From the NCBI RefSeq assembly GCF_041146795.1, contig NC_135175.1, forward strand, positions 25,499,075-25,563,074: a DNA stretch of 64,000 bases, read 5' to 3'. Below are positions 2,546 through 56,180 of this stretch, piece after piece; positions within the stretch are counted from its first letter, which is position 1; every line of letters starts with the position of its first letter. Source of the stretch: Maylandia zebra (Eukaryota; Chordata; Actinopteri; Cichliformes; Cichlidae). The notes under the pieces were generated by a model. The model was not told the origin of the DNA, searched no databases, and worked only from the letters and a program-made list of their open reading frames with translations. The position numbers were made by a program, and so were the translations under genes.

Positions 2546-3810
2546 TGCACAGAACTGGCAGATGGATGCTGCCTGCCGAACAGTCTTGTGAAACCTTGCA
2601 AAGAGTGCAGTAATGTTAATGGGTTCATATCACTAACTATATGAACAAAATGACTAAAGGCTGCAAGTTTAGCTCGCCCAGTTGAGCAGGTGGTTCACCA
2701 CATGGCTCGATGCAGAGACCAGGTGTCAAGTCTGACCACGGGCCCTTTGCTGTGTCTCTCTTCCTGCAAATGCTTTTTTTGTGTCTATTTGTCACTATTC
2801 TGTCTAAAGATGGACATGTGTGTAATTGGATAAGAATCTGGCTGTCAGATGGATGCAGATCCAGAGTTCAGGTCTCTGGAGAAGACATCAGAGTCTAGCT
2901 CCACTTTACTCAGGTTTATCATTAGGCTAGCTTACATGAACAGATCATATCAAGTTAAATATCAATTTTCATGTTATTTGAAAACATAAGTGCCTGGTTG
3001 AGCCTCCTGTGGTGGGTTAAAGGGAAGAACAAATTCCCCAGTGGTGAAATCTCTCTCAAATCAGTATTGCAAGAAAAAGAATCATTCATTGTTGCTTTAT
3101 TAATGTTTCATTATACATGAAGCTGAATTTTTTTTTTTATCTTTTAGCATTTTTAATGTAATTAGAATTTTAGTTTCCAGTCCTGAATCTTCAGTTTTTA
3201 TTGTAATCCAGCTGTGACTGTAACAACGCATTTAAGTGCATTTTTCTGTGTTTGATATAAAGTTGCTATCACTTTTTTCTTCTCTTTAAACTCTACTTCC
3301 CATCCTGTTAGTCCTACTTTTGCACATGAAAAATGTTAAATATAAGTAATTCAATAATTATAATTTTCAGTTGTTCTGTGGAAGAGGTTAGCTTTTTGAT
3401 TATTTGTAGGAATAATCAATCACTGGTATGAGTTTTCTTATTAAAGTGCACCCTCCTCTTACTTCAGGTGCCGAACCAAAGCAGTGAAAATGCTGTTGAG
3501 CAAGTAGGTGGACTAAAATTTCAGAAAGCAAACTAATGATTAATATACGTCGGAGTTTTGTGGGAGAAAAATATGTTAACGTACAAGAGACTGAAGATTA
3601 ATCAGCTGCAGAAAAAGATACAGAAGACAACCAGCTGTCAAAACAGGAAAGCAGTTTGACTAACAAACTCAAACTTGACATAGAGAGCGTCACGAGGGAA
3701 GGCGAGGAAAGTTGAGACTTTAACCTACAAGTGAAACCATAAATTCAAATTCCTCTTACTGGGACTGCAAAGCCGACATCGTGCACACAGGTGGCTGACT
3801 TGTTTTTAAG
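2546..3810. other. Upstream region of secreted-peptide gene A
   Basis: No gene or known repeat is recognised. The last 100 bases before the ATG at 3811 hold only a weak TATA-like CATAAAT near 3739. The TGAACTTTGA/TATAAAA promoter shared by the other units of the array is absent, so gene A is probably controlled differently. Confidence 0.4.
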
Positions 3811-5484
3811 ATGAGGGGATTCACACTGCTTATGGTGGGAATTATTCTGGCTGCACTGACAGACTTTTCATTTGCAGAGGTAAGAAAAAAAGTACTAAAT
3901 GCCACCGTTCTGTAAGGTAGTGCAAATACAATCATTTTTATATCATTGCAAAATCAATTATGCTCATTCAAAGTTTTTACTCAGTTTAAATGTCTATTAA
4001 GATAAATATTAATTAAGTATTGTTGCTCAATACTGCAAACAAATACACAGCGAACTAATGCATTTAATCACTCCTGCAAGCTTAATAATGAAAATATATA
4101 AATAATTAAACAAATGTGTAATCGCTGCTTGGTTTTGGGTCTAAATATTTTCTAAATAATATGTTTTTAGATCTAAATATTTTCTGTTTTTTAGATGATA
4201 AATGTGTGCTTGATCACATTATGTCAGTTAAGTGACAGAAATCGATTTTTTAAGGCTCATTCTGTTATGCATTGAAATGTTTAAGACAAAAAAAGTCCTT
4301 TACATGATCTGCCAAATGGAAGTGAACATGTTATAACTAAAGCTGCTTTAAATATATATTTTTTAGGCTGGATATTTATCTATGAGGCCAATGGAAGGTA
4401 CAAACGGGACGTCCAACTCAACAGAGGTGTGTGAACTTTGAGTGTTTCATGTTTTAATCTGTTTAGGTGAGACTTAAAATCAAATTAGATTTTGACAAAT
4501 ATAAGCAGTGCTGCTCAAATATGAGTAGAATTCTTACTTTAATTATTCTCAGTAAAAATGTCTTTGTTATGGGATTTTTTTTCAATTATATAATCATAGT
4601 TTTCAATTGTAAAGTGTGCTAATTGCTGCTATTTCTAAGGGACGGGTTAGGTTTTGATTATTTTTCTGTTTTATTTGAAGTCCAAAGTCGACGACCTTGC
4701 AGGAATAAACAAACACATGATTACAAGCATTGGAACCTGTTTCCTCATTAAAGTTCAAATGTGCTCTTATTTTAGCCACAAGAGGAAACCACAGAAAATA
4801 AAGCTGCTGTGCAGGTAGGTTTCATAAAGCAAAGTAAGGACTGACACGTGAAAAGTGTTGAAATGCAAGAGGATGAAGATGCATTTATCATCTTACTCAC
4901 ATTAACCTAAAGTTTGGCTGACTTCCTTTTTAATCCCATCAGTGGAACGGCACCATTAGGCCAGTGGAAAGTGATTTTGGGTTCCCTCCTACAGAGCCCC
5001 TCGAACAAAGCCCCCAGAAGGACACCAAAGTAAGAAACTGCAGCAAAATAAAGACCTTTAAGTCATGTTAAAGTTTGAAAAACTTTATTTTATTTAGTCT
5101 TTTGAAAAACATTATTTTAATTAAAAAACAAACAAACAAAAGCTTTAATGTTTACCACAGAAATGTGAAGGCAGTTTCTCCAGCTCCAAAGTCCAAAATC
5201 CAAATGAAGCCTTTTTATTTTTGTTCCTGTTAAACAGGAGTTTTTCCCAATGTCGCCAAAGCACTTGCTCATAGGGGGTCGTGTAATTGTTGGGGTTTTC
5301 TCTGTTGTATTATTGTAGGGACTACCTTACAATATAAAATGCCCTGAGGTGACTGTTATTGTGATTTGGTGCTGTATAAATAAACTAAATTGACTTTGCT
5401 TTGAACAACAACAACTGACAATCTAAAGACGTTCACACAGAGCAGTTTATTTTGTGTTTTTCCTTGTCATTGTCATTACAGTAA
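3811..5484 (+). CDS. Gene A: small secreted N-glycopeptide, unrecognised family
   Basis: Predicted exons are 3811-3879, 4367-4426, 4776-4814, 4943-5029, then a terminal exon from 5482 whose first codon is TAA. All introns are phase 0 with GT-AG ends. The product is 85 aa. A hydrophobic signal peptide (starts MRGFTLLMVGIILAA, ends FSFAE) is followed by exons encoding 20, 13 and 29 residues. N-x-S/T sites occur in exon 2 (NGT, NST) and at the start of exon 4 (WNGT). The mature part has no cysteine, no second hydrophobic segment and is acidic. Exon 4 carries RPVESDFGFPPTEP, which resembles the HPLESTGNFPTAPT part of gene C, so A is the divergent member of the array. The stop exon is an inference: the acceptor (pyrimidine-rich, ...cattacag) is good, but no transcript confirms it. 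A possible polyA signal AATAAA lies near 5803. Function is unknown. Confidence 0.65.
5235..5400 (+). repeat. L2-type LINE 3' tail inside the last intron of gene A
   Basis: This is the same teleost LINE tail as at 48405-48880, in + orientation, 5'-truncated to about 165 bp and ending in the usual ATAAATAAA-rich tail. It lies in the intron before the proposed stop-codon exon of gene A. Confidence 0.7.
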
Positions 5485-5794
5485 ATCTTAACTTCTTAGT
5501 GTGAGCAGTTGCTGCTTTTCTTTTTGAAATATGACAGAAAACCAAACAACTTGGTGTTTTATTGGTTTAAGACACAACCATGAAAATGTGGAACCAAAAA
5601 AATCACAGTACTGCTTTACATTACCAATACCTGCTTACACTCTGCATACACTACTACGTACTATGAATACAAGACAATGTACTGTTTTCAAACAAAGGAA
5701 TATAATATTTACAGAAACTTAAACTTAAAAAAGTCATTATTGGAGGGGACGCCCATGAGAGCAACCAGCCTCACCAAATTAACAACTGCCCTGT

Positions 5795-5938
5795 TGTTGA
5801 GAATAAAACAGACTTTGGGCAGGTAAGCAAACAAATTTGAACTTTGATGTTAAACAAGAGCTGAAGTAAAACAGCCTCCACCTACAAACACATGCATCAT
5901 AAAACAGGCGTAAGCGCTCACTGGAAGCTGATTACAAA
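5795..5938 (+). promoter_or_regulatory. Proximal promoter of unit B
   Basis: This block is shared with units at 7640, 9519 and 12362. It contains TGAACTTTGA at 5838-5847 (reverse TCAAAGTTCA, HNF4/DR1-like), then gttaaacaag, the block ctccacctacaaacac, and CATAAAA at 5898-5904 where other units have TATAAAA. The TATA-like box is therefore altered in B. The start codon follows about 35 bp downstream. Confidence 0.55.
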
Positions 5939-7061
5939 ATGAGAGGACTCACACTGCTCTGTTTGGTGGGACTTATTCTCACAGCTTCGGTAAGAAAATA
6001 TATCACTGTTTGATGTTCACAGATATGTTGAAAGCTTATAACAAATGACAGTCTACATAAATATTTATTTAGACATATTTATCATCACGAAACAAAGACT
6101 TAATATTTTTCACTATTAAAGAGGTCAATCTGGACTTTATTAACTAACATATAAGTGAGACATAATTCTTATCATCATGAGATTTTTGTTTTTTTTTTAA
6201 ATTGAAAAAAACAACAACCCAACAATAAATATCAATTGCCCCACGTGTGTGGAATTATATCTGTGACCCCTTTTACAGATATAATCTTTGCCCCGGGCCT
6301 TGAAATACCAAGAAAATAAACAGATCTATGACTTGCTTCAGAGTTGATCATCTATTACTAAGTAAAATTAGGCTAATATTCATTTTTAATATTTTGTAAT
6401 ATTTATATTTAAGATCATTCAATCATCCGCATCAACATTTACTTTGTGTCGGCAAATATCTACACAAATTGTGTGAATTCTGTTTTATGTTGACTCCTAA
6501 AAGCATTTTTACTAACACAACAAGCTCAAACTGCTTATTTCAATTTTATGCTACAGTGACACAGATGTGCTGTATATTAGTGTAACCTTAAAACTTGACT
6601 TAGAATTTCTTTGTCTTTACATAATTATTTATATGCATATTTCATGTATAAATGTATATTATTGTAGATTATATTTTATTTCAATGTTGATAGCAAACTG
6701 AGTTGTGCCATGGGTGCTGGAGTCCCCTTGAAGGTACACGTGATGAAACTGAATAAGCCGAGGGAAATGACACACAGGTAAAAAACCATTGACAACACTA
6801 TATTTACACATCTATAATTTGTCATAATTTCATGTAAAAGAAAATTATCAAAGTGCCTTGAAAAATTGTATTTTAAAACAAATGTCTTAAAAAAAGATAG
6901 AAACCTGTCCATAGGTGTGATTTTGTGACAGTTAAGTGAAATCATTAGATTTTTTCCCCTCTGTGTAATTTACAGACCGTTCATCAGAACATTTCAGTGG
7001 AAGCAACAGTGGACGACCGTGATTCTGCTCATGTTACTGTCTTACCTAAATAATCATTAAA
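5939..7061 (+). pseudogene. Unit B: damaged paralogue of the secreted-peptide family
   Basis: Exon 1 (5939-5989) is intact and encodes MRGLTLLCLVGLILTAS before a good gtaag donor. The exon around 6693-6779 corresponds to gene C exon 4 but is rearranged. From the only visible acceptor (after 6692) phase 0 reads through a WSPLE segment and reaches TAA soon after. The frame that would fit the donor at 6780 (gtaaaa) also meets a TAA. The last exon (from 6976, stop 7051-7053) encodes TVHQNISVEATV and then runs on, through a small deletion relative to gene C, into sequence that is 3' UTR in gene C. The polyA signal is ATTAAA-like rather than AATAAA. Either this is a pseudogene or it makes a shortened secreted peptide; I favour a pseudogene. 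Confidence 0.55.
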
Positions 7062-7639
7062 AGTCTGTTGTGAGAAAAGTTTCCTTTATTTGTTAAGTGT
7101 CTCTTATTTGTTGTTATGTGCTTTTTCCAAGGTCATTTAGAAACGTAGAGCTGGAACTTTTGACAAATTATCTGCCAGACACACAAAAAAACACCTATTC
7201 TGACAAAATGAGACAACACGGGAATTAATTATCGAGGGGAGACACAAATGAAGACAAAAAGAACATTTTCTTTAAAGAGACGGTAAATTTACAAAACTAA
7301 CTTCATCACGTTTTACTAACACAAAGGCAGTGGCTGCTTATTTCAGGCCTGTTATAACAAATGCACGTGAGCTGACGTGTGCCATCGTTGCTATGAACTC
7401 CTAACTGTATTTAATGATCATACTTTGTCCTGCTGCTTTTTTAATAAACAAATAAAAACAGTTCCTGATAAACTAACTCGACATCCTGTTACGGGCATTT
7501 TTCTTAATAATTAACATTGAGAAAAATTACAAATAAAATAAGCTTTTTCTTTTAAATATGGCATTTTACGAAAGAGAGAACAGCGGATTCATAAGTATGT
7601 GGAAGAGTCTGAATTACATTAATAACAAATTCAGTTTTG
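7062..7639. other. Spacer between units B and the pseudogene unit
   Basis: No gene recognised. This is AT-rich downstream sequence, partly similar to the 3' flanks of the other units (for example, a 'gctggaacttttg' block after 7140 is also found near 16030). Confidence 0.4.
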
Positions 7640-7789
7640 AAGAGAATAAAGCAGACTTTTTTTTCATTTGCTAACAAACAAAGTTGAACTTTGATGTTAA
7701 ACAAGAGTTGAAGTCAAAGAGGCTTCACCTACAAACACTTGGATTATAAAACAGTTTGAAGTGCAGACAGGAGGCCGATCACATCCGAG
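7640..7789 (+). promoter_or_regulatory. Relic promoter of the pseudogene unit
   Basis: This region keeps the shared block: AATAAAGCAGACTTT, TGAACTTTGA at 7685-7694, the ttcacctacaaacactt block and TATAAAA at 7745-7751. The promoter is better preserved than the exon it served. Confidence 0.6.
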
Positions 7790-8575
7790 GTGAGACGACT
7801 CGCACTGCGCTGTTAGGTGGGATTTACTCTCACAGCTTCAGTTAAACAAAACAAAACATCATACTGGCAAATTAGCCAAATTTTTAAAAACCTTTTCTGC
7901 TGGTTTCAATAAAACTTCTATCATACAAAGTGTGAATATGTGTAATGAGTGTAGGGAAATTTTAGCTTCACAGATCAAATACTATAGCTTGAAATTTTCA
8001 CTGGTCTTATCAGGATCTTTCATTTGGGACAGATACATTAAAACTAGTGAACTAGTTTACTAGTTAATTCTTAACTAGTTTTTGACTTGTTAAGTCCAGC
8101 AAGTCCTACAAACTCCCATTTTTGAGCAAACACTAATAAAAAAACTGTCATTTATTGTCTTTTTAAATTTCTTAATGGTTTCTGGTTGAATTTTACAACT
8201 GCAAAACAAAGCATACTTAGTCATAAAAAGTAAGAAAACACCAAATTCATTCAACTTTCATGTTGGATTGATCAAATTTGAGCCGTTGCACCACAAAACA
8301 AAAACATCAGTATAAAGTTTAATCCGATGGTACTCTAATATGTGAAGCTAAAATCTTCCAGCAATCATTATATATGTATTTATTTCTTCGCGGTTTCATT
8401 GTAGGACTGTTGTTTAACTACCAGATAAACGAGACTGCAGATTTAAACTTAGGCTTGATATAAATGTATTTTTCTACCATAAATCAGCTGGAGTGTTTCT
8501 CACACACTGTTGTTAAAAAACAAAAAAACCCAGCACTGAACTTGAATTTGTATATCTTTATTACATTTGAGGGTT
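7790..8575 (+). pseudogene. Degenerate unit: signal-peptide exon and intron 1 only
   Basis: Positions 7790-7840 align codon for codon with exon 1 of gene C but carry three lesions. The start ATG is GTG, the ninth codon TTG is TAG, and the donor gtaag is gttaa. Downstream sequence up to about 8570 still resembles gene C intron 1 (the 'agctggagtgt... cagcactga' landmarks near 8490-8540). After that the similarity ends, and no later exon is found before the next unit. It is a dead, 3'-truncated copy. Confidence 0.8.
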
Positions 8576-8804
8576 AGCACCTGAGTACTGCATCTAAAAT
8601 GAGCAAATTCAACAAAATAGAGTAACTTTGACTGTATCTGTGTAAAGTAACCAGTTCTTGAAACATTATGATCTATAACATCCATCACAGGTTTCCACTT
8701 TCCACTTTTCTCTATGTAAATGTGATTAAAATGTATCATTTGACAGGGATTAGGCAGTTTTACATAAGTCAAGTACTAATGAAACAGATGTACAGAGAGG
8801 TTAT

Positions 8805-9300
8805 AGCAGTGAGGTCAAACTCGTTTCACACTGACGGCCACGAACAGTCCACCATGACTTGAGTGGGCCAGACGAGTGAAACTCCACTTTCTGTCCGTGT
8901 AAAGGTGTTTAACTCCACATTTAATCCCTGAGATATCGTACAATAAGATAAAGATCTGCAAGTTCAACACCACATCTCAGTGTTTCTATGATAAATGTGT
9001 AAAATTACAGTTGTGGTGCAGCTCACTGCCCAGAGTGTCTGATGTTTGTACAACATAGAGTTTCATGGATGAAAATTTTCTTTCTTTTTTTATGTCATAA
9101 TGGTAGACAGTGAAAAACACTGTCTACACTTTTCTGTCATTTAACTATTTATCTATTACTTAACTTCTTTGGTGTAGAATGAACGGCTGTTATCAGCAGG
9201 AAAAGCTGTCCAACGATTTATGCACTTCCTCATATTTTCTGCAGTGTTTGCCTGGCCGATTCTGGCCCCCGGGCCTTATTTTTGACACCTTTGGGTTATA
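8805..9300. mobile_element. hAT-like MITE, decayed
   Basis: The left end reads 'ggtcaaactcgtttcac' and the right end 'ggcccccgggccttatttttgacacct'. These match in inverted form the ends of an abundant teleost non-autonomous hAT-like repeat (GTGTCAAAC... CGGGGGCC). A perfect hairpin with 10-bp arms (9103-9112 and 9118-9127) lies inside. There is no coding sequence. Family naming is from memory. Confidence 0.5.
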
Positions 9301-9518
9301 GCAGAATATATAAGGTGTCTGTCTCCCTGCTTGTTACAAAATGACACCTTCAATACAAAATAAACCGACTGGGTCCACGAGGACAGGGTGAGGCAATCAG
9401 GAAGTAAGAATACATTTTTAAAAATGCATAAATATTATCAGCCTTTTCTTGTAAACGTGACACCTGGGACAGCAGGTGTCACAGGGGATGTTTAAATCTT
9501 CACTGCTGTTGAAACGTC

Positions 9519-9711
9519 TAAATTAAACTAAAAATGTTGTTTTCTGAAGAATAAAGCAGACTTTGTGAGCGCAAACATATTTACATTTGCTAACAAACAC
9601 AGTTGAACTTTGATGTTAAACAAGCGCTGAAGTGAAAGAGTCTCCACCTACAAACACTTGCATTATAAAACAGGAGGTCTGTGTGCAGACAGGAGGCTGA
9701 TCACATCCACG
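9519..9711 (+). promoter_or_regulatory. Proximal promoter of gene C
   Basis: Close copy of the block before gene D: 'ttaaactaaaaatgttg', AATAAAGCAGACTTTGTG, TGAACTTTGA at 9604-9613 (HNF4/DR1-like), gttaaacaag, 'ctccacctacaaacacttg', and TATAAAA at 9664-9670. A start site about 30 bp after the TATA box would give a 5' UTR of only about 20 nt before the ATG at 9712. Transcription-factor identity is inference only. Confidence 0.65.
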
Positions 9712-10738
9712 ATGAGAGGACTCGCACTGCTCTGTTTGGTGGGATTTATTCTCACAGCTTCGGTAAGAAAATATCATGCACCTGTTTGATGTTCATGGAT
9801 TTCCTGAAAGAATTAACAGTCTCACTGAGTTTATAACAAGTGATAATCTACATAAATGTTTAGATTTCATCTTTAACATTGTAGGACTGTTGTTAGTTAG
9901 TTAGTCCAGTATGTTTTTAATTTCTGTTTATTTATTTTGACCAAGAATCAGCTGGAGTGTGTCTCATGCTGCTGACTCGCTGAGATTAATTGATTAATGC
10001 TGCTTTGTTTGCTTTGAAATGTCAATGACCTTCCAGCACTGAGGGGAAAAAGGCAAAAATAAAAACCTCCAACACTTAAATCTGTATATTGTTATTCTAT
10101 TAAAGCGTTTTCCATTTTCTTTTCAGCTGCATGAAGGAGGCGCAGCACCATCATCGGATGTAAGTTAGAAAAACAAAAAAACAACCTGTTGACACGAGTG
10201 GCATTATTCACCAGTAATTATAACATTATAATATTATATATAAATGTGTGTGTGTTTATTTTTTTTTACTTTAGGATGCTGGCAGCTGGCATCCTCTTGA
10301 AAGCACTGGCAATTTTCCAACTGCTCCAACTCGTGTAGTAAGTAACGCCACAAAAATAAGCAATATTTATATGTCCGTGCGTGTCCTGCAAGGTGTAAAA
10401 TGATAAAAAGTATCAAATTATTTGTTTATTTGTGCAGGTTATATTTTATTTAGATGTTGGGGAAGGGTTGGGTTTAAAGATCTGTAACTAATGTAATCCA
10501 ACATATTTCAGAACGAGACCTTGCATCCAAATAATTCTACTCATGCTGGAAATGCCACAGAGGTAAAACACCATCAGCACAGCTTTTATGAAGTCGGACA
10601 ACAGCATTTAATTTGAAATAGCACTGACGAGAGAACAGAGAATATGTGGCAATTTATTGAAATCCTTTTATTTCTCTTTACACTTTACAGGTTCATCACA
10701 ACAATACAGCTGCAGCAACAGTGAAAGAAGACGCGTGA
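9712..10738 (+). CDS. Gene C: small secreted N-glycopeptide, best-preserved unit
   Basis: Five exons: 9712-9762, 10127-10159, 10275-10337, 10512-10562 and 10691-10738 (stop TGA 10736-10738). All introns are phase 0 with clear GT-AG borders. The 81-aa product has a signal peptide MRGLALLCLVGFILTAS (exon 1), then LHEGGAAPSSD (exon 2), a 21-residue exon containing SWHPLESTGNFPTAP, NETLHPNNSTHAGNATE (exon 4) and VHHNNTAAATVKEDA (exon 5). Sequons NET, NNS/NST, NAT and NNT suggest heavy N-glycosylation. The mature part has no cysteine, transmembrane segment, GPI-type tail or dibasic cleavage site. AATAAA at 10813-10818 is a good polyA signal. The small symmetric exons recall SCPP and mucin-like genes, but no SCPP motif is present and I do not assign a family. 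Confidence 0.75.
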
Positions 10739-10849
10739 TGCTAAAAATGTTGAAGCGTGAATCTTCACAGAGACAGACGACCGTGATTCTGCTGGTGTTA
10801 CCGTCTTCTCTGAATAAACACTAAAATTATGTTGTGGGAAAAGTTTTCT

Positions 10850-11639
10850 TTATTTATTAAACTTAATAAAAGGTCTTTTAAAATGTGTTTTTCAAGAGAT
10901 GGAAAAAAAGACCTACTCTAACATAGGGATTAATAACTGACGTTAAATTTTCACGTTAATCATATTTCATTAACAATTAAGCACTGCCTGGTTATTTAAG
11001 GTCTAAGAAACTGAATGCATCACATCAGAGTCGGAGCTGTAGGGGCGTTTCTAGGACTTTCTTAACAAGGTGGCAGAGAGGGGGGCAATAATCATGTATG
11101 ATCTCAAATTTAATGTCCTCAGCTTGTAATGTTTAGACTTTGAAATGCAGTTACTTTGATTACAGTGCTTTGTTCTCTCACAAACCACAAGCTTTACATA
11201 AAAGTACATACAAATTTAACCTATTAACAGTTAGACAATTACAAATCAAAAATAAGCTAGTCACACGCAGTAATGTAACAGCTACACATTTTAAAATCAA
11301 TATTAGCTCATAGCTTTAAAAGTCATTTTAAATGTAAGAGTGTTTTTTCTGCACATTACTTGCAGAAACGTGCAGATCGAATCACCGGTGTTGTCAAAAC
11401 GCGACTGTGATTCTGCGGAGTGATTGACAGTACTGTGATCCAATAAGATAAGGCAGTTTCAGATGGACAGTTTTCTAAACCAATGACGGTGGGAGTTAGA
11501 GGGTAGGCGATCAGATTCCAAGAGGGGTCTAGAAGGGTGGGTCTAGAAAGGGCGGTGCCACCCCATGCCACCCTTTTAGACTCACCCCTGCTGAGCTGAG
11601 CATCAGCCAAGTCGCAATCAGCCAAGGTTTCAGGTGAAC
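10850..11639. other. Intergenic spacer downstream of gene C
   Basis: No gene recognised. Positions 11350-11640 may be the distal end of the Penelope-like fragment that follows. The open frames there look like translation of that element's flank. Confidence 0.35.
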
Positions 11640-12110
11640 CCATTGCCCCACCCTATGTGATTTCCTGAGGTCAGATGGCCCAGGATGTGAGTGGGCGTTA
11701 AGGCGTCTGGGGAGGGAACTCAAAACTGGATTATAGATGGCAGACAGTTGGTGTCGTAAACCACCGCCTCTGTTCAAAGATGGTCATTCACAGTGGACAT
11801 AGATGGCTTCTTTCACTCCTCTTTCAAACCATCTGTCCTCTCTGTCCAAAATATGAACACTGGCATCCTCAAAAGAGTGACCTTTGTCCTTTAGATGCAG
11901 ATGGACAGCTGAGTCTTGTCCCGTGGAGGTGGCTCTTCTATGTTGTGCCATGCGTTTATGAAGTAGCTGTTTGGTCTCTCCAGTGTAAAGTTTTGTTTAG
12001 GAGGCAAAACTCCTAAACACAAACTTAACAACTGCATGCGGTACAGTGTAGAGAGGAATGTCCAGACCTCTACATTTTGGTTTTAGAGCTGAGAACCTGC
12101 AAATTCAGCC
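11640..12110 (-). mobile_element. Penelope-like element fragment (GIY-YIG region)
   Basis: Reading the - strand from about 12030 to 11650 gives YTGETKQLLHKRMAQHRR, then AVHLHLKDKGHSFED, REDRWFERGVKEAIYV and SLNRGGGLRHQLS. This string is typical of the C-terminal GIY-YIG endonuclease region of teleost Penelope-like elements. A TGA stop interrupts it (between IYVHCE and PSLN), and the reading frame breaks near 12000. The reverse-transcriptase part is missing, so it is a dead 5'-truncated copy between genes C and D. Confidence 0.7.
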
Positions 12111-12361
12111 CAATACAAACTAACTCGACATGACAACACCCGTCTGAACAAAGACCAAAGCTGGTTTTGTTCTTTTTTTAACACTATTAGTTTACATTTG
12201 GATTATTCCAGTTCAAAAAATCATTAATAAAATGGATAAAAAAATGAATAAAATTAATAAAATGAGCATTTTTAACCAAACATAACACTTAAGAAAGAAG
12301 CAAAAAAAAATTTTAAAAATAAAATGAAAGAAAGAAACAGTAAGTAAAAAGGGCCTGAATT

Positions 12362-12544
12362 ATATTAAACTAAAAATGTTGTTTTCTGAAGAATAAAGCA
12401 GACTTTGTGAGTGCAAACATGTTTGCATTTGCTAACAAAGTTGAACTTTGATGTTAAACAAGAGCTGAAAGAGTCTCCACCTACAAACACTTGCATTATA
12501 AAACAGGAGGTCTGTGCGCAGACGGGACGCTGATCACATCCACG
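12362..12544 (+). promoter_or_regulatory. Proximal promoter of gene D
   Basis: Near-identical to the gene C promoter: TGAACTTTGA at 12442-12451, 'ctccacctacaaacacttg', TATAAAA at 12497-12503 and ATG at 12545. It is slightly shorter than in C because of small deletions (for example in the 'gctaacaaa' segment). Confidence 0.65.
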
Positions 12545-14251
12545 ATGAGAGGACTCGCACTGCTCTGTTTGGTGGGATTTATTCTCACAGCTTCGGTAAG
12601 AACATTCATATCCCTGTTTGATCTTCATGGATTTACTGAAAGGAAGAAATTTAAATGGTTGAAAGGAACTAACGGTCTCACTGAGCCAATAGCAAATTAT
12701 AGTCTTCATAAATATTTAGATGTCATTTTATATTTTTGTAGTTTTGTAAAGCTATTGTTTAACTGGTAAGTTCGACTCCAGATGTAAACATGAGTTTGAA
12801 TTAAATATATTTTTTCACCAAGAATCAGCTGGAGTGATTCATGCTGCTTTGCTTGCTTTGAAATGTCAATGACCTTTCAGCACTGAGGGAAAAGAAAGAG
12901 GCAAAAAAAAACCTCTAGCACTGAATTTTGTATCTGTCTAACATTATTCTGTTTTTAAGTTTTATCAGGTAGTAAATACAAACACTTGTCATTACATCTT
13001 AACCTCCTAGGACCTGGCGTCCACATATGTGGACATCACATTTTGGGTTATTTAGGCCAAAATACTCAATTTTGCTCTACATGGGCCTGATATCCACTTA
13101 CGAGGACATTATGCTGCTACTGTTCTATCAAAATTTTAAACGAATATCCTCATATGTGGCTCTTATTTTTCTTAAAAACAAAAATAAGGTAAAAAAAAAC
13201 TTTGTTTTTACATTCATCGGGCCCCAAACAGCCCAAATATCAAAGAGAAATTAAAAATGCATGCCGTTTAAGAGTTTGGGTCTTAGGAGGTTAATCCAAT
13301 CTTTAAGAAACAACATCACCCAATCACAGCCTCTAAAACGAGAAAACAAAAGTAGATAAACTCAACACAAAAATAAGGAATTTTTGCAGCTTAAAGTCAT
13401 CTTAATTTATTATTTGACATGGATGGTGTGATCTTATATAGGTCATATACAGATCATGAAAAACATATTCTATAGCTATTTTAATATTAAATCTTTGTCC
13501 CTTTAGTTTTTGCAACTTACATTTCCAACTTCAGTGTCATCAATGTCCAGAAAGAGAGAAAATATGAAATCTTTTTATTTCCACCTTTTTTGTGCAGCTT
13601 CCATAATTACTTTTTTTTGTTTCGTTTTATTAAAATGTTTCTTCTTCTTAAACATCAAATGGTTTATTTTAAGAAGACTTAAAGTTGTTCTTTGTCATTC
13701 TAGCATTCAGCTAGAGCTACAACTACCGTAAGTACTACATTAATAAAACACCAGAAACATCAACCAGTATTTCTAATGTTTTATATTTTCATGTTTATCG
13801 GTTTAAGTAAAGATTACCAAAGGTACCCTGACGAATTGTTAAAATATTACAAAACTTGACATATCTTTCATTTCTTGGTTTGATGGTGTGTAAAACTATT
13901 TGTAGATCAGATTTGATTTAGATGTCGGGGGAAAGGTTAAGTTTAAAAGCCTGTAACTAATGTAATCCAATGCATTTCAGAGAATACCCACCTCTATCTG
14001 GCATGCTCTATCCTCTAATAATACTCGTTCATCACCTAGAAATGGTACACAGGTAAAACACCTTCAACACAGCTTTCATAATGTCTTACAACAACATTTA
14101 ATCTGAAATAACACTGACAAGACAGCTGAGAACGTATGGCAAATAATTTTTTATTTTCCTCCTGTATATTATATAGGCCGTTCATCACAACAATACAGTG
14201 GAAGCAACAGTTGAACCAACAGTGAAAGAAGACGCACCAAATGTGCTCTAA
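12545..14251 (+). CDS. Gene D: small secreted N-glycopeptide, paralogue of C
   Basis: Exon 1 (12545-12595) is identical at the protein level to gene C exon 1. Proposed later exons are 13704-13727 (HSARATTT, strong gtaagt donor), 13981-14052 (24 aa, including SIWHALSSNNTRSSPRNGTQ) and 14177-14251 (AVHHNNTVEATVEPTV, then KEDAPNVL and TAA). All are phase 0. The product would be about 73 aa with three sequons (NNT, NGT, NNT) and no cysteine after the signal. The equivalent of gene C exon 2 seems lost: its acceptor region is diverged and a MITE sits just after it. The 24-nt exon matches only the end of gene C exon 3 and is the least certain. The AATAAA used by gene C reads AATACA here; ATTAAA near 14320 may replace it. 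Confidence 0.6.
12999..13294. mobile_element. TTAA-flanked MITE (piggyBac-like), in intron 1 of gene D
   Basis: A 296-bp element begins TTAACCTCCTAGGACC and ends with the inverted copy GGTCTTAGGAGGTTAA. It thus has 16-bp inverted ends with one mismatch, and TTAA at both edges. Near the left end is the palindrome GTCCACATATGTGGAC. The open frame inside is not a known transposase. TTAA target sites point to mobilisation by a piggyBac-type transposase. The repeat is widespread in teleosts as far as I recall. Confidence 0.75.
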
Positions 14252-14499
14252 AAACTTCAAAGAAAGACACCGTTCGACTGATGGTATAGTCTTCTCTGAA
14301 TACACATTAGAAACCTATAATTAAAAAGTTCCTCTTATTTGTTATTATGCTTTGTATAAGGTCATTTAAAATCTATTTGTTACTTAGGAGATGAAACAAC
14401 AACAAAAAAAACACCTACACTGACCAAATTCAGTTTTATTTATTTTTCTGTTATTTAATCCTCACAATGTTACTGGAGGCCAAAGTAATACTATCCAGA

Positions 14500-14536
14500 G
14501 TAACTTTCTGGTTAGATACCATAACCAGAAAGTTAC
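14500..14536. repeat. Perfect 15-bp fold-back hairpin
   Basis: The arms 14500-14514 (GTAACTTTCTGGTTA) and 14522-14536 are exact inverted copies around a 7-nt loop. They lie at the 3' edge of the LINE fragment. Confidence 0.85.
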
Positions 14537-15334
14537 AATAACGTCTGTTTTAACTGGATTTAGAAGCAGGAAATTAGAGGACATCCAGATCTTTATGTTA
14601 TGTTATGTTAATAGAAATTCCTGCAGTTTAACTAATTGGTGTGTGTTACGTGGCTCCAGGGATAAATAAAGTTGGGTGTCACCTGAATAGAAGTGAAAAT
14701 GTACGCTATGCCTTCAGATGCTGCTGCCTAAGGGAAGCATGTAAATGGTAAACAGAAATGGTCCGCGCAGGGAACCCTGTGGTACTCCATAATTAACCTT
14801 AGTGTGTGAAGAGGACTCCTCATTTACATGAACAAATTGGAGCCTATTAGATAGAAATGATTCTAATCACTGCAGCGCAGTACCTGTAATACCGACTGCA
14901 TGTTCTAATCTGTGTAATAACATATTACGGTTGACAGTATCGAACGCTGCGCTGAGGTCTAGCAGGACAAGCAGAGAGGAGTCACTGTCAGAGGCCATAA
15001 GAAGATCATTTGTAACCTTCACTAAAGCTGTTTCTGTGCTGTGATGAGCTCTGAAACCTGACTGAAACTCTTCAAATAAGCCATTCCTCTGCAGATGATC
15101 TGTTAGCTGTTTGACAACTACTCTTTCAAGGATGTTTGATATGAAAGGAAGGTTGGAGATTGGCCTATAATTACCTAAAACAGCTAAGGTTAAATGAATG
15201 CCCCGCTCAGAGTTGTTTTTATTTTCTTCAATCGGTGATGAGTAGTAAGATGTTCTAGCTTTACGGGGCTTTTTACAAAAATACAAATAAAACAAATTAA
15301 TGACACGCCAGTTCCACAGCAGCTTACGAGTCAT
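14537..15334 (-). mobile_element. Decayed LINE fragment with reverse-transcriptase segment
   Basis: On the - strand, 15200-14867 encodes reverse-transcriptase blocks NYRPISNLPFISNILE, EFQSGFRAHHSTETAL and LLVLLDLSAAFDTV, typical of the L2/CR1-type LINE group. After a stop near 14867 the reading continues with the block [21 protein letters not shown]. The catalytic FADDT motif is degraded to HSGDTQ. Upstream coding sequence and the endonuclease domain are absent. This is a fragment interrupted by stops and not active. It separates gene D from the orphan 3' end at 15.65 kb. Confidence 0.8.
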
Positions 15335-15584
15335 CTGCTTTAAAATGCAAATTTAAGAGTCAAGTATGTCTGATTTATGGTTTTGCTTTGTTTTATTTTT
15401 TTCTTTTCAGAGTCATACGCAGTGTAGATGTAAAAGTATTAAGATAATCAACCTCTGTGGGAGGAGACTTGGGAGTAAAATGTTCGAGTTGTATGTCAAA
15501 TCCAGACAAAGCCAGACCCTGAGTGTGTTTGGTGGGGGGTGGGTTCTTTTAAATTTTGAAAGTCAGTTGAGTCATTTGGCTGTC

Positions 15585-15635
15585 AGCGGATGCACGATCC
15601 TATGAGGCGTTTCCTCATAGGATCGTGCATCCGCT
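15585..15635. repeat. Perfect 23-bp palindrome with 5-nt loop
   Basis: The arm 15585-15607 (starts AGCGGATGCACGATCC) and the arm 15613-15635 are exact reverse complements around CGTTT. A perfect fold-back of this length is probably recent or under repair-driven homogenisation. It sits directly upstream of the orphan exon remnant at 15642. Confidence 0.9.
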
Positions 15636-15639
15636 TTAA

Positions 15640-15936
15640 AAGTAATTCTACTCCCTCAACAGAGGTAACAGACCATCAGCACAGATTTCATGTCTTACAA
15701 CAGCATTTTATCTGAAATAACATGGACAAGACAGCTGAGACTGTGTGGCAATTAACTGAAATCATTTTATTTATTTATTTTTTCCTCTGTATACTTTATA
15801 GACTGTTCATCACAACATGTCATTGGAAGCAACAGCGAAAGAAGACGTATCCAAGAGACGCTAAAAAGATGAAAACATGAAACCTCCCAGAGACAGACCA
15901 CAAAATCTGTTAGTTTCACTGCCTTCTCTGAATAAA
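15640..15936 (+). pseudogene. Orphan 3' end of a secreted-peptide unit (unit E)
   Basis: Positions 15640-15666 resemble the end of gene C exon 4 (SNSTPSTE then a gtaaca donor). The following intron matches gene C and D introns, and 15802-15864 is a complete last exon: TVHHNMSLEATAKEDV, then SKRR and TAA. AATAAA follows at 15931-15936. No signal-peptide exon or shared promoter is found between gene D and here; a LINE fragment and a palindrome occupy that space. It is either a 5'-lost unit or alternative 3' exons of gene D. Confidence 0.6.
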
Positions 15937-17695: not shown

Positions 17696-20600
17696 CTACT
17701 TATCCCCCAGGATGGCGTACTGGTTGTCGAGCTGCAAGTGCTGCATAGAAGCGCCACCGGTCTCCTCTCTGCCACGGTTCCTGTGTTTCACAACCTCGAA
17801 GGTCTTCTCCATTTCTCTGTCCCTGAAACACAAACATCAGGTCATTCAAGGAGCGAAAGCAGCATTACTTACTGTAATTATGGTGGCACCACAGTATAAT
17901 CATTCCTGCATAACTGAGCCTTTAGACACTTTATGTCCAGTGAAAAACTAAGTACCCCCTTACTACTTTCGTAGCTATCGAGAAGATCAGTAGCAGCCGG
18001 CTGCTGCTAATCAAATGACTTTGATCAACTGAGCATCAGTAAGTGTGAGCACCTCTATAACATGAGAAGCTTTGGCAGTTTGCTGGTCTGGAGCATTCAG
18101 GTGTGTGTTAACACAAAGCCAAGGACGAAAGACATCAGCAATGATCTCAGAGAAGCAACTGTTGCTGCCCATCAATCTGGGAAGGTTTACGAACAATATG
18201 AAGTCCATCACTCTGCAGTTAGAATGATTATTAACAAGTGGAAAATATTCAGTTGCTAATATGGCAACTTTTCACTCAAAGGTCACCACACACCACACCT
18301 CAGACTCTACAGGCCTCACTTAGCTTGTTAAAAGTTCAAAGTTCATGAGAGCACAAAGACTGAACACGTTTGGCTTGTTTGGAAGGTTGCAAGTGAACAA
18401 ACCACAAGACTTCTGGAACAATGTTGTTATGACAAAGTGCACAGAGCCACATTTGGCTAATCAGCACAAATGGCTCACGCACAGTGGTGAAGGGGTGATG
18501 ATTTGGGCTTGTTTTTCAGACTGTGAGTAACCATGAACTTGTCTAAATACCAGAGTATTCTAAACATGAGGCCATGTGTCCAATAATGAAAGCATCAGGA
18601 CAATGATAACAAGCCTAAGAACAAAGTTTAGTACATATTTAAATACCATATTGGAAATAAAAATTACAAATAAAATAAAGCCAGAAAATCAAAACAACTA
18701 CTGTTAACAAAAATGGATTATGTGGCACACAAAGGCTAGATGCTACAGCACAAACAGGAGAAAATAAGGATGTGATGACTACAGCGCTAACATCATTGTG
18801 AGACAAGAATACACTGCCACGTAAAACTAGCACGGCAGAAGTCAACCCTAACACAGATGCGAGAGTGAAATAAGTGATCTACAAAGAATCGCCAAGCAGT
18901 TCCCAGAGCTGAAGAATATTTTGCCCTTAGGCTCATCCAGATACGTTATTATAACGGTTTTCCTGTAAACTCTGCTTACTTGCGTGTCTCAACGTGCTTG
19001 GCGGTGGCCAGTAGAGAGGGGAACTGTGTGTCACTGAAGATTTCAGGAGGGCCCTGGGTCGGGCCTCGTTTGGTGGTGGTAAGTCGAGCTCCCGGAGGGC
19101 GATATACACCAGCGGGCTTCGCCTCAGGTACCTCTACATTCTCTACTGCTGAAATGAAATGCATCAAAAAACAAAAATCACTGTGCTGCTCAAAAAAAAC
19201 AATGGAAAAGCTGAATTTAGATGACTGAAACAAAAAAGGTTTTGAGGGTTTCCTTAACAAATAAAGGCCCTCAGGTCCCCCAGGAAGAAAAAAGGTCGAT
19301 TTTACATCGGTTTACTCACCCACAGGAGCAGGAGGAGGCGCGGCACCAGACTTGTTCCAGGGACCTTTTTCACCTCGTTCTCCACTGACGAGAATGATCT
19401 CTCCATCCTCACCAACCTCCTCCTTCTCGTACTCCTCTTCCTCTTTCTCGTCACTACAAACAACCAGGAGGCAGTAAAGCATAGGTGAACACATGCCCAG
19501 GTGCCCTGCTGCTGATATAACTGAATGCATCAAAGCTGATAAGGTTAGGACAGAAACCTCCATGTCCTGTGTGTCCCTGTACATTTACTACACAGCAAAA
19601 CAAAGATGCTTCCTTTTATTTCCATCACCAGAATGACAGCATTCAAATATGGCTGATTTAGAGTTTTGGGTTCAGAGCCAAAGACTCACAAAAAAAACAG
19701 ATTTGGCTTCCATCCCCACTGCAGTGCACCTCCACGCTGTTTTAATACTATGGATATTGATACTTCTTGATCACTCTGTGAAAGTCCTGTTCTGGGCCAT
19801 CTGGCTTGGGCTCTTCAGTGTGCAGAAACCTCCACCTCTGTGTCAAACTGACCTGTCATATTTAATCGCTGGTGATGCTGGACCTCCAGCTACATATCAA
19901 CAAGCAACAAGTAGTGTCGACCGTGCCCAGGCCCAAAAGCGTTACATCGGATGCCTGTTCTGTGAAGTAGGACCAACCCAATCACTGCTTACGACCAACT
20001 CTACTCACCAGACTTTGTCTTCTTCCTCAAAATGAAACAGAAGATTAACAGTTGCTGTTTTAATACAGTGGAGGAGACATAGTGTGCATTGCTGCAAGAA
20101 CAGGACTTCCAGGGAATGATCTAAAAATAGCAGGAACACTGGAAGAGGTCCAGAGGTGCACAAGGACATTGCCTGCTATCCCCTTTTAAGGTCAACTTAA
20201 ATTGGGCATGGTTTTTGGATCTTGAGGTTAAAGTTGCACCTTGCGAAATGTTCGGAACTGTTTGTGTGGACAAATTCGTCCATCCTATTTTAGGGAAGTC
20301 CGATTGTGAAATTCTAAGTCGGTACCAATAAATAACAATCAGGATGGCAGTGGAGAGGTTTTTTTGTGTGTTTGTTCTGTTTCTAATCAGCCACTGACAG
20401 TGGCGCATGTCAGCTGATTAGCATTTCTTTCACCACTCCCTCTGTTTAACCTCACAGCTAAAACAGCTGTTCTTTTATTTATTCACTCAAGGGTTCAAAT
20501 TATTTATACTGTGGAGGTTCAGAACAGAAACTCTTAAAAAAATAAAACCAAGGCCCGGAGCCCAGAAACAGCCCGGCGGGGCTTCAGTCCACCCCGCAGG

Positions 20601-30708: not shown

Positions 30709-52745
<22,037 letters not shown>

Positions 52746-55785: not shown

Positions 55786-56180
55786 ATTGTCATGGTCCTG
55801 GGTCATTTTGACCCAGCGTTCTTAGTTTTCTTGTGTTTTTGTATTCATTCTATGGTTTCCTAGGTTGTTTAGTTTTTTGCATTTCCTTTCGTGTCTCTAC
55901 CCTCTATGTGTATCTGTTTTTATGGTGATGTGAGTTCTTGTGCCATCTTGTTTTCTCCAGATTTGTTTTCTCTCTCTCTCTCTCTTTTTCCAGTCTACCT
56001 CTTCGTGTACTTCCTGTTTTACTTTGAAGGTCGGTGTGTTCAGTTTTGTGTTCTCCCTGTCTCGTCTGTGTAATCAGCGTCAGCTGTGTCTCCCAGCTGT
56101 TTCCTCTCAGTCCTGATCTCCTCTTGTATTTAGTGTCTGCGTCTTCCCCTGCTCGTCGTTGCATCGCTAACAACACACTT
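55786..56180 (+). repeat. Possible dispersed repeat
   Basis: Pyrimidine-rich block beginning 'catggtcctgggtcatttt' with 'ttcctgttttactttgaagg', 'cagctgtgtctcccagctg' and 'ctgctcgtcgttgcatcg'. It reads like a teleost retroelement flank I have seen in many places, but I cannot name the family. Confidence 0.35.

Follow-up and report, generated by a model that had tools for sequence, protein, structure and literature searches.

Does the interval between a SCRIB-like gene and CDV3 in the cichlid Maylandia zebra hold a family of very small secreted glycoprotein genes, or only the relics of one? We analyzed 64,000 nucleotides (nt) of this genome (NCBI RefSeq assembly GCF_041146795.1, contig NC_135175.1, positions 25,499,075 to 25,563,074 of the forward strand), here called the window, in which an array of related short-exon units lies on the + strand within 12 kb, bounded by the SCRIB-like gene on the left and CDV3 on the right. 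An earlier note on this DNA had counted at least six such units. Six footprints are indeed present, named A, B, psi, C, D and E in their order along the strand, but only C and D are complete genes, with A, which is open but incomplete, perhaps a third. The sequence moderately favors a duplicated family of genes for secreted N-glycoproteins, of which C and D are complete, A is divergent and three copies are decayed or partial.

An open reading from signal peptide to last exon is seen in C and D only. Both are phase-0 chains with AG/GT exon borders, and in C an AATAAA lies 3′ of the stop codon. Exon by exon, with slashes for borders, the C protein reads MRGLALLCLVGFILTAS/LHEGGAAPSSD/DAGSWHPLESTGNFPTAPTRV/NETLHPNNSTHAGNATE/VHHNNTAAATVKEDA and the D protein MRGLALLCLVGFILTAS/HSARATTT/RIPTSIWHALSSNNTRSSPRNGTQ/AVHHNNTVEATVEPTVKEDAPNVL, the 8-codon exon 2 of D being the weakest exon call. 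Exon 1 encodes little beyond the signal peptide, with predicted cleavage at or adjoining the exon border, and leaves mature parts of 64 (C) and 56 (D) residues. Short phase-0 exons and a cysteine-free mature part of 56–64 residues, as described in the earlier note, are thus borne out in these two units. Its near-identical signal-peptide exon and its VHHNNT-type last exon were also recovered: five signal-peptide exons, one of them dead, and four last exons of the VH[HQ]N-x-[ST] type (B, C, D and E) lie in the array, and exon 1 is identical between C and D over 51 nt, with two differing sites in B, both amino-acid changing. Unit A joins the family through its first exon, which matches B exon 1 at the DNA level over 44 columns (82%, E 4e-7, unit against unit), and reads MRGFTLLMVGIILAALTDFSFAE/AGYLSMRPMEGTNGTSNSTE/PQEETTENKAAVQ/WNGTIRPVESDFGFPPTEPLEQSPQKDTK/, with no recognisable last exon in the scan downstream of its exon 1. 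Exon size is small throughout A, C and D, at 8–29 codons.

The relationship extends beyond exon 1 in C and D, where identity is 93% over the 5′ segments and 68%, with gaps, over the 3′ halves, a gradient that fits gene conversion or constraint on the 5′ part. Searches of the whole 962-Mb genome, in which match counts are lower bounds, gave four matches to a promoter plus exon 1 probe and four to a last-exon region probe that included C exon 4, all of them in the array. These probes cover the signal-peptide and last-exon DNA, and C exon 4 as the only internal exon of C and D, and were drawn from outside unit A. For the signal-peptide and last exons an interspersed repeat is therefore rejected, no copies having been found outside the array. 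In line with the duplication proposed earlier, the units form a family whose signal-peptide and last-exon DNA was found in the array only and does not behave as a genome-wide repeat. For A, homology past exon 1 is only suggestive, because it depends on two low P values among 21 comparisons (shuffle P 0.01 for A exon 4 with C exon 3, and 0.0125 with C exon 4). The 110 nt upstream of A show no significant likeness to B, C or D, as 113, 34 and 197 of 1873 controls, respectively, score equally high.

The peptides also went unrecognised, as the earlier note had supposed. Pfam returned no significant match for A–D (the sole hit, of CcmD to B at E 0.44, stays below its cut-off), PDB none for the two proteins compared, C (best E 0.59) and A (0.85), and Rfam 0 matches in the whole window. 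In the literature searched, four peptide strings were found nowhere, no paper combining CDV3, TMEM108 and teleosts was found, and titles and abstract beginnings held nothing on this locus. It is probable that this is a small family of known kind that escapes the libraries searched, and RefSeq or Ensembl annotation may already list uncharacterised loci here.

Enrichment in N-glycosylation sequons (N-x-S/T) was assessed by a blind scan of 204 kb for phase-0 exons, defined by a pyrimidine-rich acceptor, a good donor and an open frame of 7–39 codons. On the array's + strand the scan called 12 exons, of which eight are internal to the unit models, three each in A and C and two in D; one further call, 15587–15664, ends in the penultimate-exon remnant of E, and those at 5319, 6073 and 15621 fall in no unit model. 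Together they hold 10 sequons in 203 residues, compared with 13 in 2084 residues (+ strand) and 9 in 1436 residues (− strand) elsewhere in the 204 kb, and 1 in 38 on the array's own − strand. None of 720 overlapping, array-sized control windows, taken on both strands with + strand windows over the array excluded, reached 10 sequons (maximum 5, mean 0.66), although the 10 array sequons are not independent because some of the array exons are homologous. Chance splice chains as the sole explanation are ruled out by the scan together with this window control. Exon length divisible by three was seen in 12/23 array candidates and 105/276 elsewhere on the + strand, so that phase alone is not decisive. 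By unit, C has five sequons (two of them overlapping), D three and A three; the earlier statement of many N-x-S/T sites holds for the array and, against shuffles of their own composition, for C (P 0.002) and A (P 0.017).

In sequence, the mature parts predicted for A, C and D contain no cysteine and are low in hydropathy and in net charge, with Ser, Thr and Pro making up 28–34%. They plot on the disordered side of the charge–hydropathy boundary, D barely so (H 0.413 vs 0.420).

Upstream of exon 1, B, psi, C and D share an invariant 22-nt block, TTGAACTTTGATGTTAAACAAG. On its reverse strand lies a core, CAAAGTTCA, in common with two HNF4 shift probes (PMC3029342) and with the HNF1A-promoter site AGTCCAAAGTTCA, a natural sequence used for an HNF4 crystal structure (PMC10315846). 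The core stands 101–108 nt before the ATG and 56–61 nt 5′ of an ATAAAA, which itself lies 40–47 nt before the ATG. The window holds six such cores against 1.64 expected, a number reached by 1 of 100 shuffles, but a single promoter, in its four copies, accounts for four of them. The combination of a TATA-type promoter and an HNF4-like site would direct expression to HNF4-positive epithelium, that is liver, intestine or kidney, and an epithelium of this type is our best guess from the sequence. The transcripts would then be spliced, the signal peptide cleaved at or beside the exon 1 border, and the 56–64-residue mature part glycosylated on 3–5 asparagines and released as a flexible peptide. With 3–5 sequons per ~60 residues, the secreted form would be dominated by N-glycans and would most likely act through them, forming in plasma, bile or mucus either a soluble coat that hydrates or prevents adhesion, or a decoy for lectins and microbes. 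Such a coat or decoy role, taken on its own, is tentative and less likely than not.

Table 1. Features of the array, in window coordinates.
Feature	Position	Strand	Basis or remark
Unit A exon 1, signal peptide MRGFTLLMVGIILAALTDFSFAE	3811–3879	+	donor GTAAGA; DNA match to B exon 1
Unit A internal exons, 3 sequons	4367–4426, 4776–4814, 4943–5029	+	three of four phase-0 candidates in blind scan of 3880–5940
Unit B exon 1, signal peptide MRGLTLLCLVGLILTAS	5939–5989	+	differs from C and D at 2 sites
Unit B last exon TVHQNISVEATV..., degenerate	6976–7053	+	~50 nt deleted; stop from former 3′ untranslated region
psi, dead signal-peptide exon	7790–7840	+	GTG replaces ATG; TAG inside
Unit C, complete (81 residues)	9712–10738	+	exons 9712–9762, 10127–10159, 10275–10337, 10512–10562, 10691–10738
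Unit D, complete (73 residues)	12545–14251	+	exons 12545–12595, 13704–13727, 13981–14052, 14177–14251; open phase-0 chain
Unit E remnant	15587–15864	+	penultimate exon ends ...SNSTPSTE at 15664; last exon 15802–15864
HNF4 core CAAAGTTCA	5838–5846 (B), 7685–7693 (psi), 9604–9612 (C), 12442–12450 (D)	−	inside invariant 22-nt block
TATA box	9664–9670 (C); same at 7745 (psi), 12497 (D); CATAAAA in B	+	ATAAAA 40–47 nt before the ATG

The remaining copies are damaged in different ways. Unit B carries an in-frame TAA in the homologue of the penultimate exon, and its deletion runs over the 3′ end (52 nt relative to C). Similarity of psi to the other units is limited to promoter, exon 1 and intron 1, and no later exons were found; inside this dead copy, at 7938–8375, lies an inverted repeat with 38-nt arms, 79% complementary and spaced 362 nt apart. 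For E no signal-peptide exon was found. The place expected for its 5′ exons is occupied by a reverse-transcriptase fragment on the − strand at 14870–15352 (Pfam RVT_1, E 1.5e-13), likely from a long interspersed element. Intron 1 of D contains an insert, absent from C, at ~12990–13300, which may be a small DNA transposon, as its ends resemble inverted repeats (CTCCTAGGACC ... GGTCTTAGGAGG). Immediately 3′ of unit A, at ~5235–5395, is a presumed repeat tail that looks dispersed, and the last exon of A may have been displaced by it. Just 5′ of A, at 3468–3503, a phase-0 exon candidate with one sequon, VPNQSSENAVEQ/GTAGGT, is somewhat like A exon 3 (PQEETTENKAAVQ/GTAGGT) and may be a piece of another divergent unit or a chance occurrence.

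Do the units look as if selection had kept a protein? The last-exon sequon is present in all four copies (NNT, NNT, NIS and NMS), and the penultimate sequon in three of the four units B–E (B, C and D: NDT, NAT and NGT); E is without it but has kept an upstream NST. In the multiple alignment, last-exon lengths change by 3, 12 and 6 nt. Several observations weigh against a maintained family. Half of the copies are decayed or partial, and the sequon number of D, where the earlier claim of many sites does not hold, is not above that of its own-composition shuffles (P 0.15). The pairwise C–D alignment breaks the 6-nt last-exon change into 7 and 1, and the penultimate exons of these two units align poorly, with many small gaps. 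Of six pairs, five have an exon/flank mismatch ratio of 0.79–1.27 and one, B–E, has 0.54; selection on the protein is unproven because divergence proceeds at much the same pace in exons and flanks. A ratio of nonsynonymous to synonymous change across paralogues, suggested earlier as a check, came to ~1.7 for the pooled last exons and is uninformative, resting on few changes (28.3 nonsynonymous per 181.5 sites, 4.7 synonymous per 52.5 sites) in six non-independent pairs of four sequences. Neutral simulation keeps the seven sequons with a probability of 0.015–0.086, with the lost sequon of E left out of the count. The HNF4 core, finally, is one observation rather than four, because its occurrences are copies of one ancestral promoter, dead psi included. 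The case for a protein is accordingly moderate, and comes from the anatomy and the blind scan rather than from measured selection.

These same observations could be read as a relic array, in which the duplication of an old gene for a small secreted product has left mostly pseudogene fragments, C and D being open through recency without any need for a useful protein. The state of B, psi and E, the similar divergence of exons and flanks and a pooled ratio not below 1 all fit. Yet in C and D the chains are open from end to end, the splice borders are good and sequons are enriched, and the last-exon sequon survives changes at its middle and third codons, so that we regard relics as a fairly improbable account. 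Reproductive proteins diverge fast, which speaks for glycopeptides of the egg or reproductive tract, that is, glycan carriers in cortical alveoli or genital fluid that resemble hyosophorins without belonging to them. N-glycan-rich unstructured peptides of this kind, the hyosophorins or polysialoglycoproteins, are described from fish eggs (PMC3528131, PMC12753239). The promoter block of the array is HNF4-like, however, with no oestrogen-response-like site within 2 mismatches at the array promoters, and none of the mature parts of A–D repeats any 4-residue string, all of which makes an egg or reproductive-tract role unlikely. In the window as a whole, near-matches to the oestrogen-response element are not above chance (15 vs 21.1 expected); a perfect palindrome of this type, GGTCATTTTGACC, lies at 55801–55813 in the TMEM108 region.

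A conserved signal peptide followed by a variable mature part is common among precursors of bioactive or antimicrobial peptides, in which the mature part is trimmed to a short active peptide, and the ~93% and 68% identities of the C–D 5′ and 3′ parts would suit such a precursor. Dibasic sites, a prohormone feature, are nevertheless absent from A, B, C and D, so that a prohormone reading fails on them, and net charge is low in A, C and D; an SKRR does end the last exon of E, but that unit has no signal peptide. We consider this very unlikely. Least probable of all is a mineral- or matrix-associated secreted protein of SCPP type, with a signal-peptide exon, short phase-0 exons and a disordered product: the short phase-0 exons and an exon 1 confined to the signal peptide agree with it, but S-x-E motifs number none in C and D and one each in A and B, and the proximity of ATAAAA to the ATG would leave little space for an untranslated first exon. 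The duplicated family of secreted N-glycoproteins might also be given a wider history, as a fish family, possibly born at a SCRIB–CDV3 junction, that keeps its promoter, signal peptide and sequons and lets the backbone drift almost freely. Its members would be disposable carriers of glycans, turning over by birth-and-death evolution and acting as soluble decoys for microbes or for lectins of gametes or the immune system; this extension is speculative and improbable as a whole.

The surroundings of the array agree with the neighbors named in the earlier note, in that Pfam places CDV3 (open reading frame 18979–19311) and TMEM108 (34726–36108) to its right, both on the − strand. To its left, + strand open reading frames encode LRR, PDZ and RRM domains; we take the LRR/PDZ gene, which ends just left of the window, to be SCRIB, and the RRM exon farther left is presumably PUF60. 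A SCRIB/PUF60-like block thus meets a CDV3/TMEM108 block at window positions 1–24000. The human counterparts lie on different chromosomes, at 8q24 and 3q22 respectively, so that the two blocks may have been joined long ago at the place of the array.

If expressed, the array would represent secreted N-glycoproteins of very small size that form a family as yet without a name. Annotation easily misses genes of this class because the exons have so few codons and the products match no domain. Intact, divergent and dead copies within 12 kb would then form a compact case of birth-and-death evolution, on which it could be tested whether selection can hold glycosylation sequons in a drifting backbone. 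If the units are relics, the locus is an ordinary decaying orphan gene.

Among known systems, GlyCAM-1 and MUCL1 are, like the array peptides, short, cysteine-poor, glycan-carrying and fast-evolving, but they are O-glycosylated on Thr/Ser-rich stretches, whereas the array is enriched in N-sequons. SCPP/SIBLING proteins share with it the signal-peptide exon, disorder and short phase-0 exons, the last not being specific to SCPPs; they differ in that C and D are without S-x-E and in their locus, which is none of those familiar to us for that group. A very short N-glycosylated mature peptide, here predicted, recalls the CD52-type glycopeptides anchored by glycosylphosphatidylinositol, but the C-terminal tails of C and D are hydrophilic (hydropathy averaging −0.67 and −0.17 over the last 15 residues), which speaks against such anchoring. 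Membership among the hyosophorins, for which PMC3528131 gives internal repeats as the criterion, is rejected for A–D. What the array peptides share with these fish-egg molecules, which are rich in carbohydrate and stored in cortical alveoli, is that they are small, unstructured, glycan-dominated and secreted, in our case by prediction.

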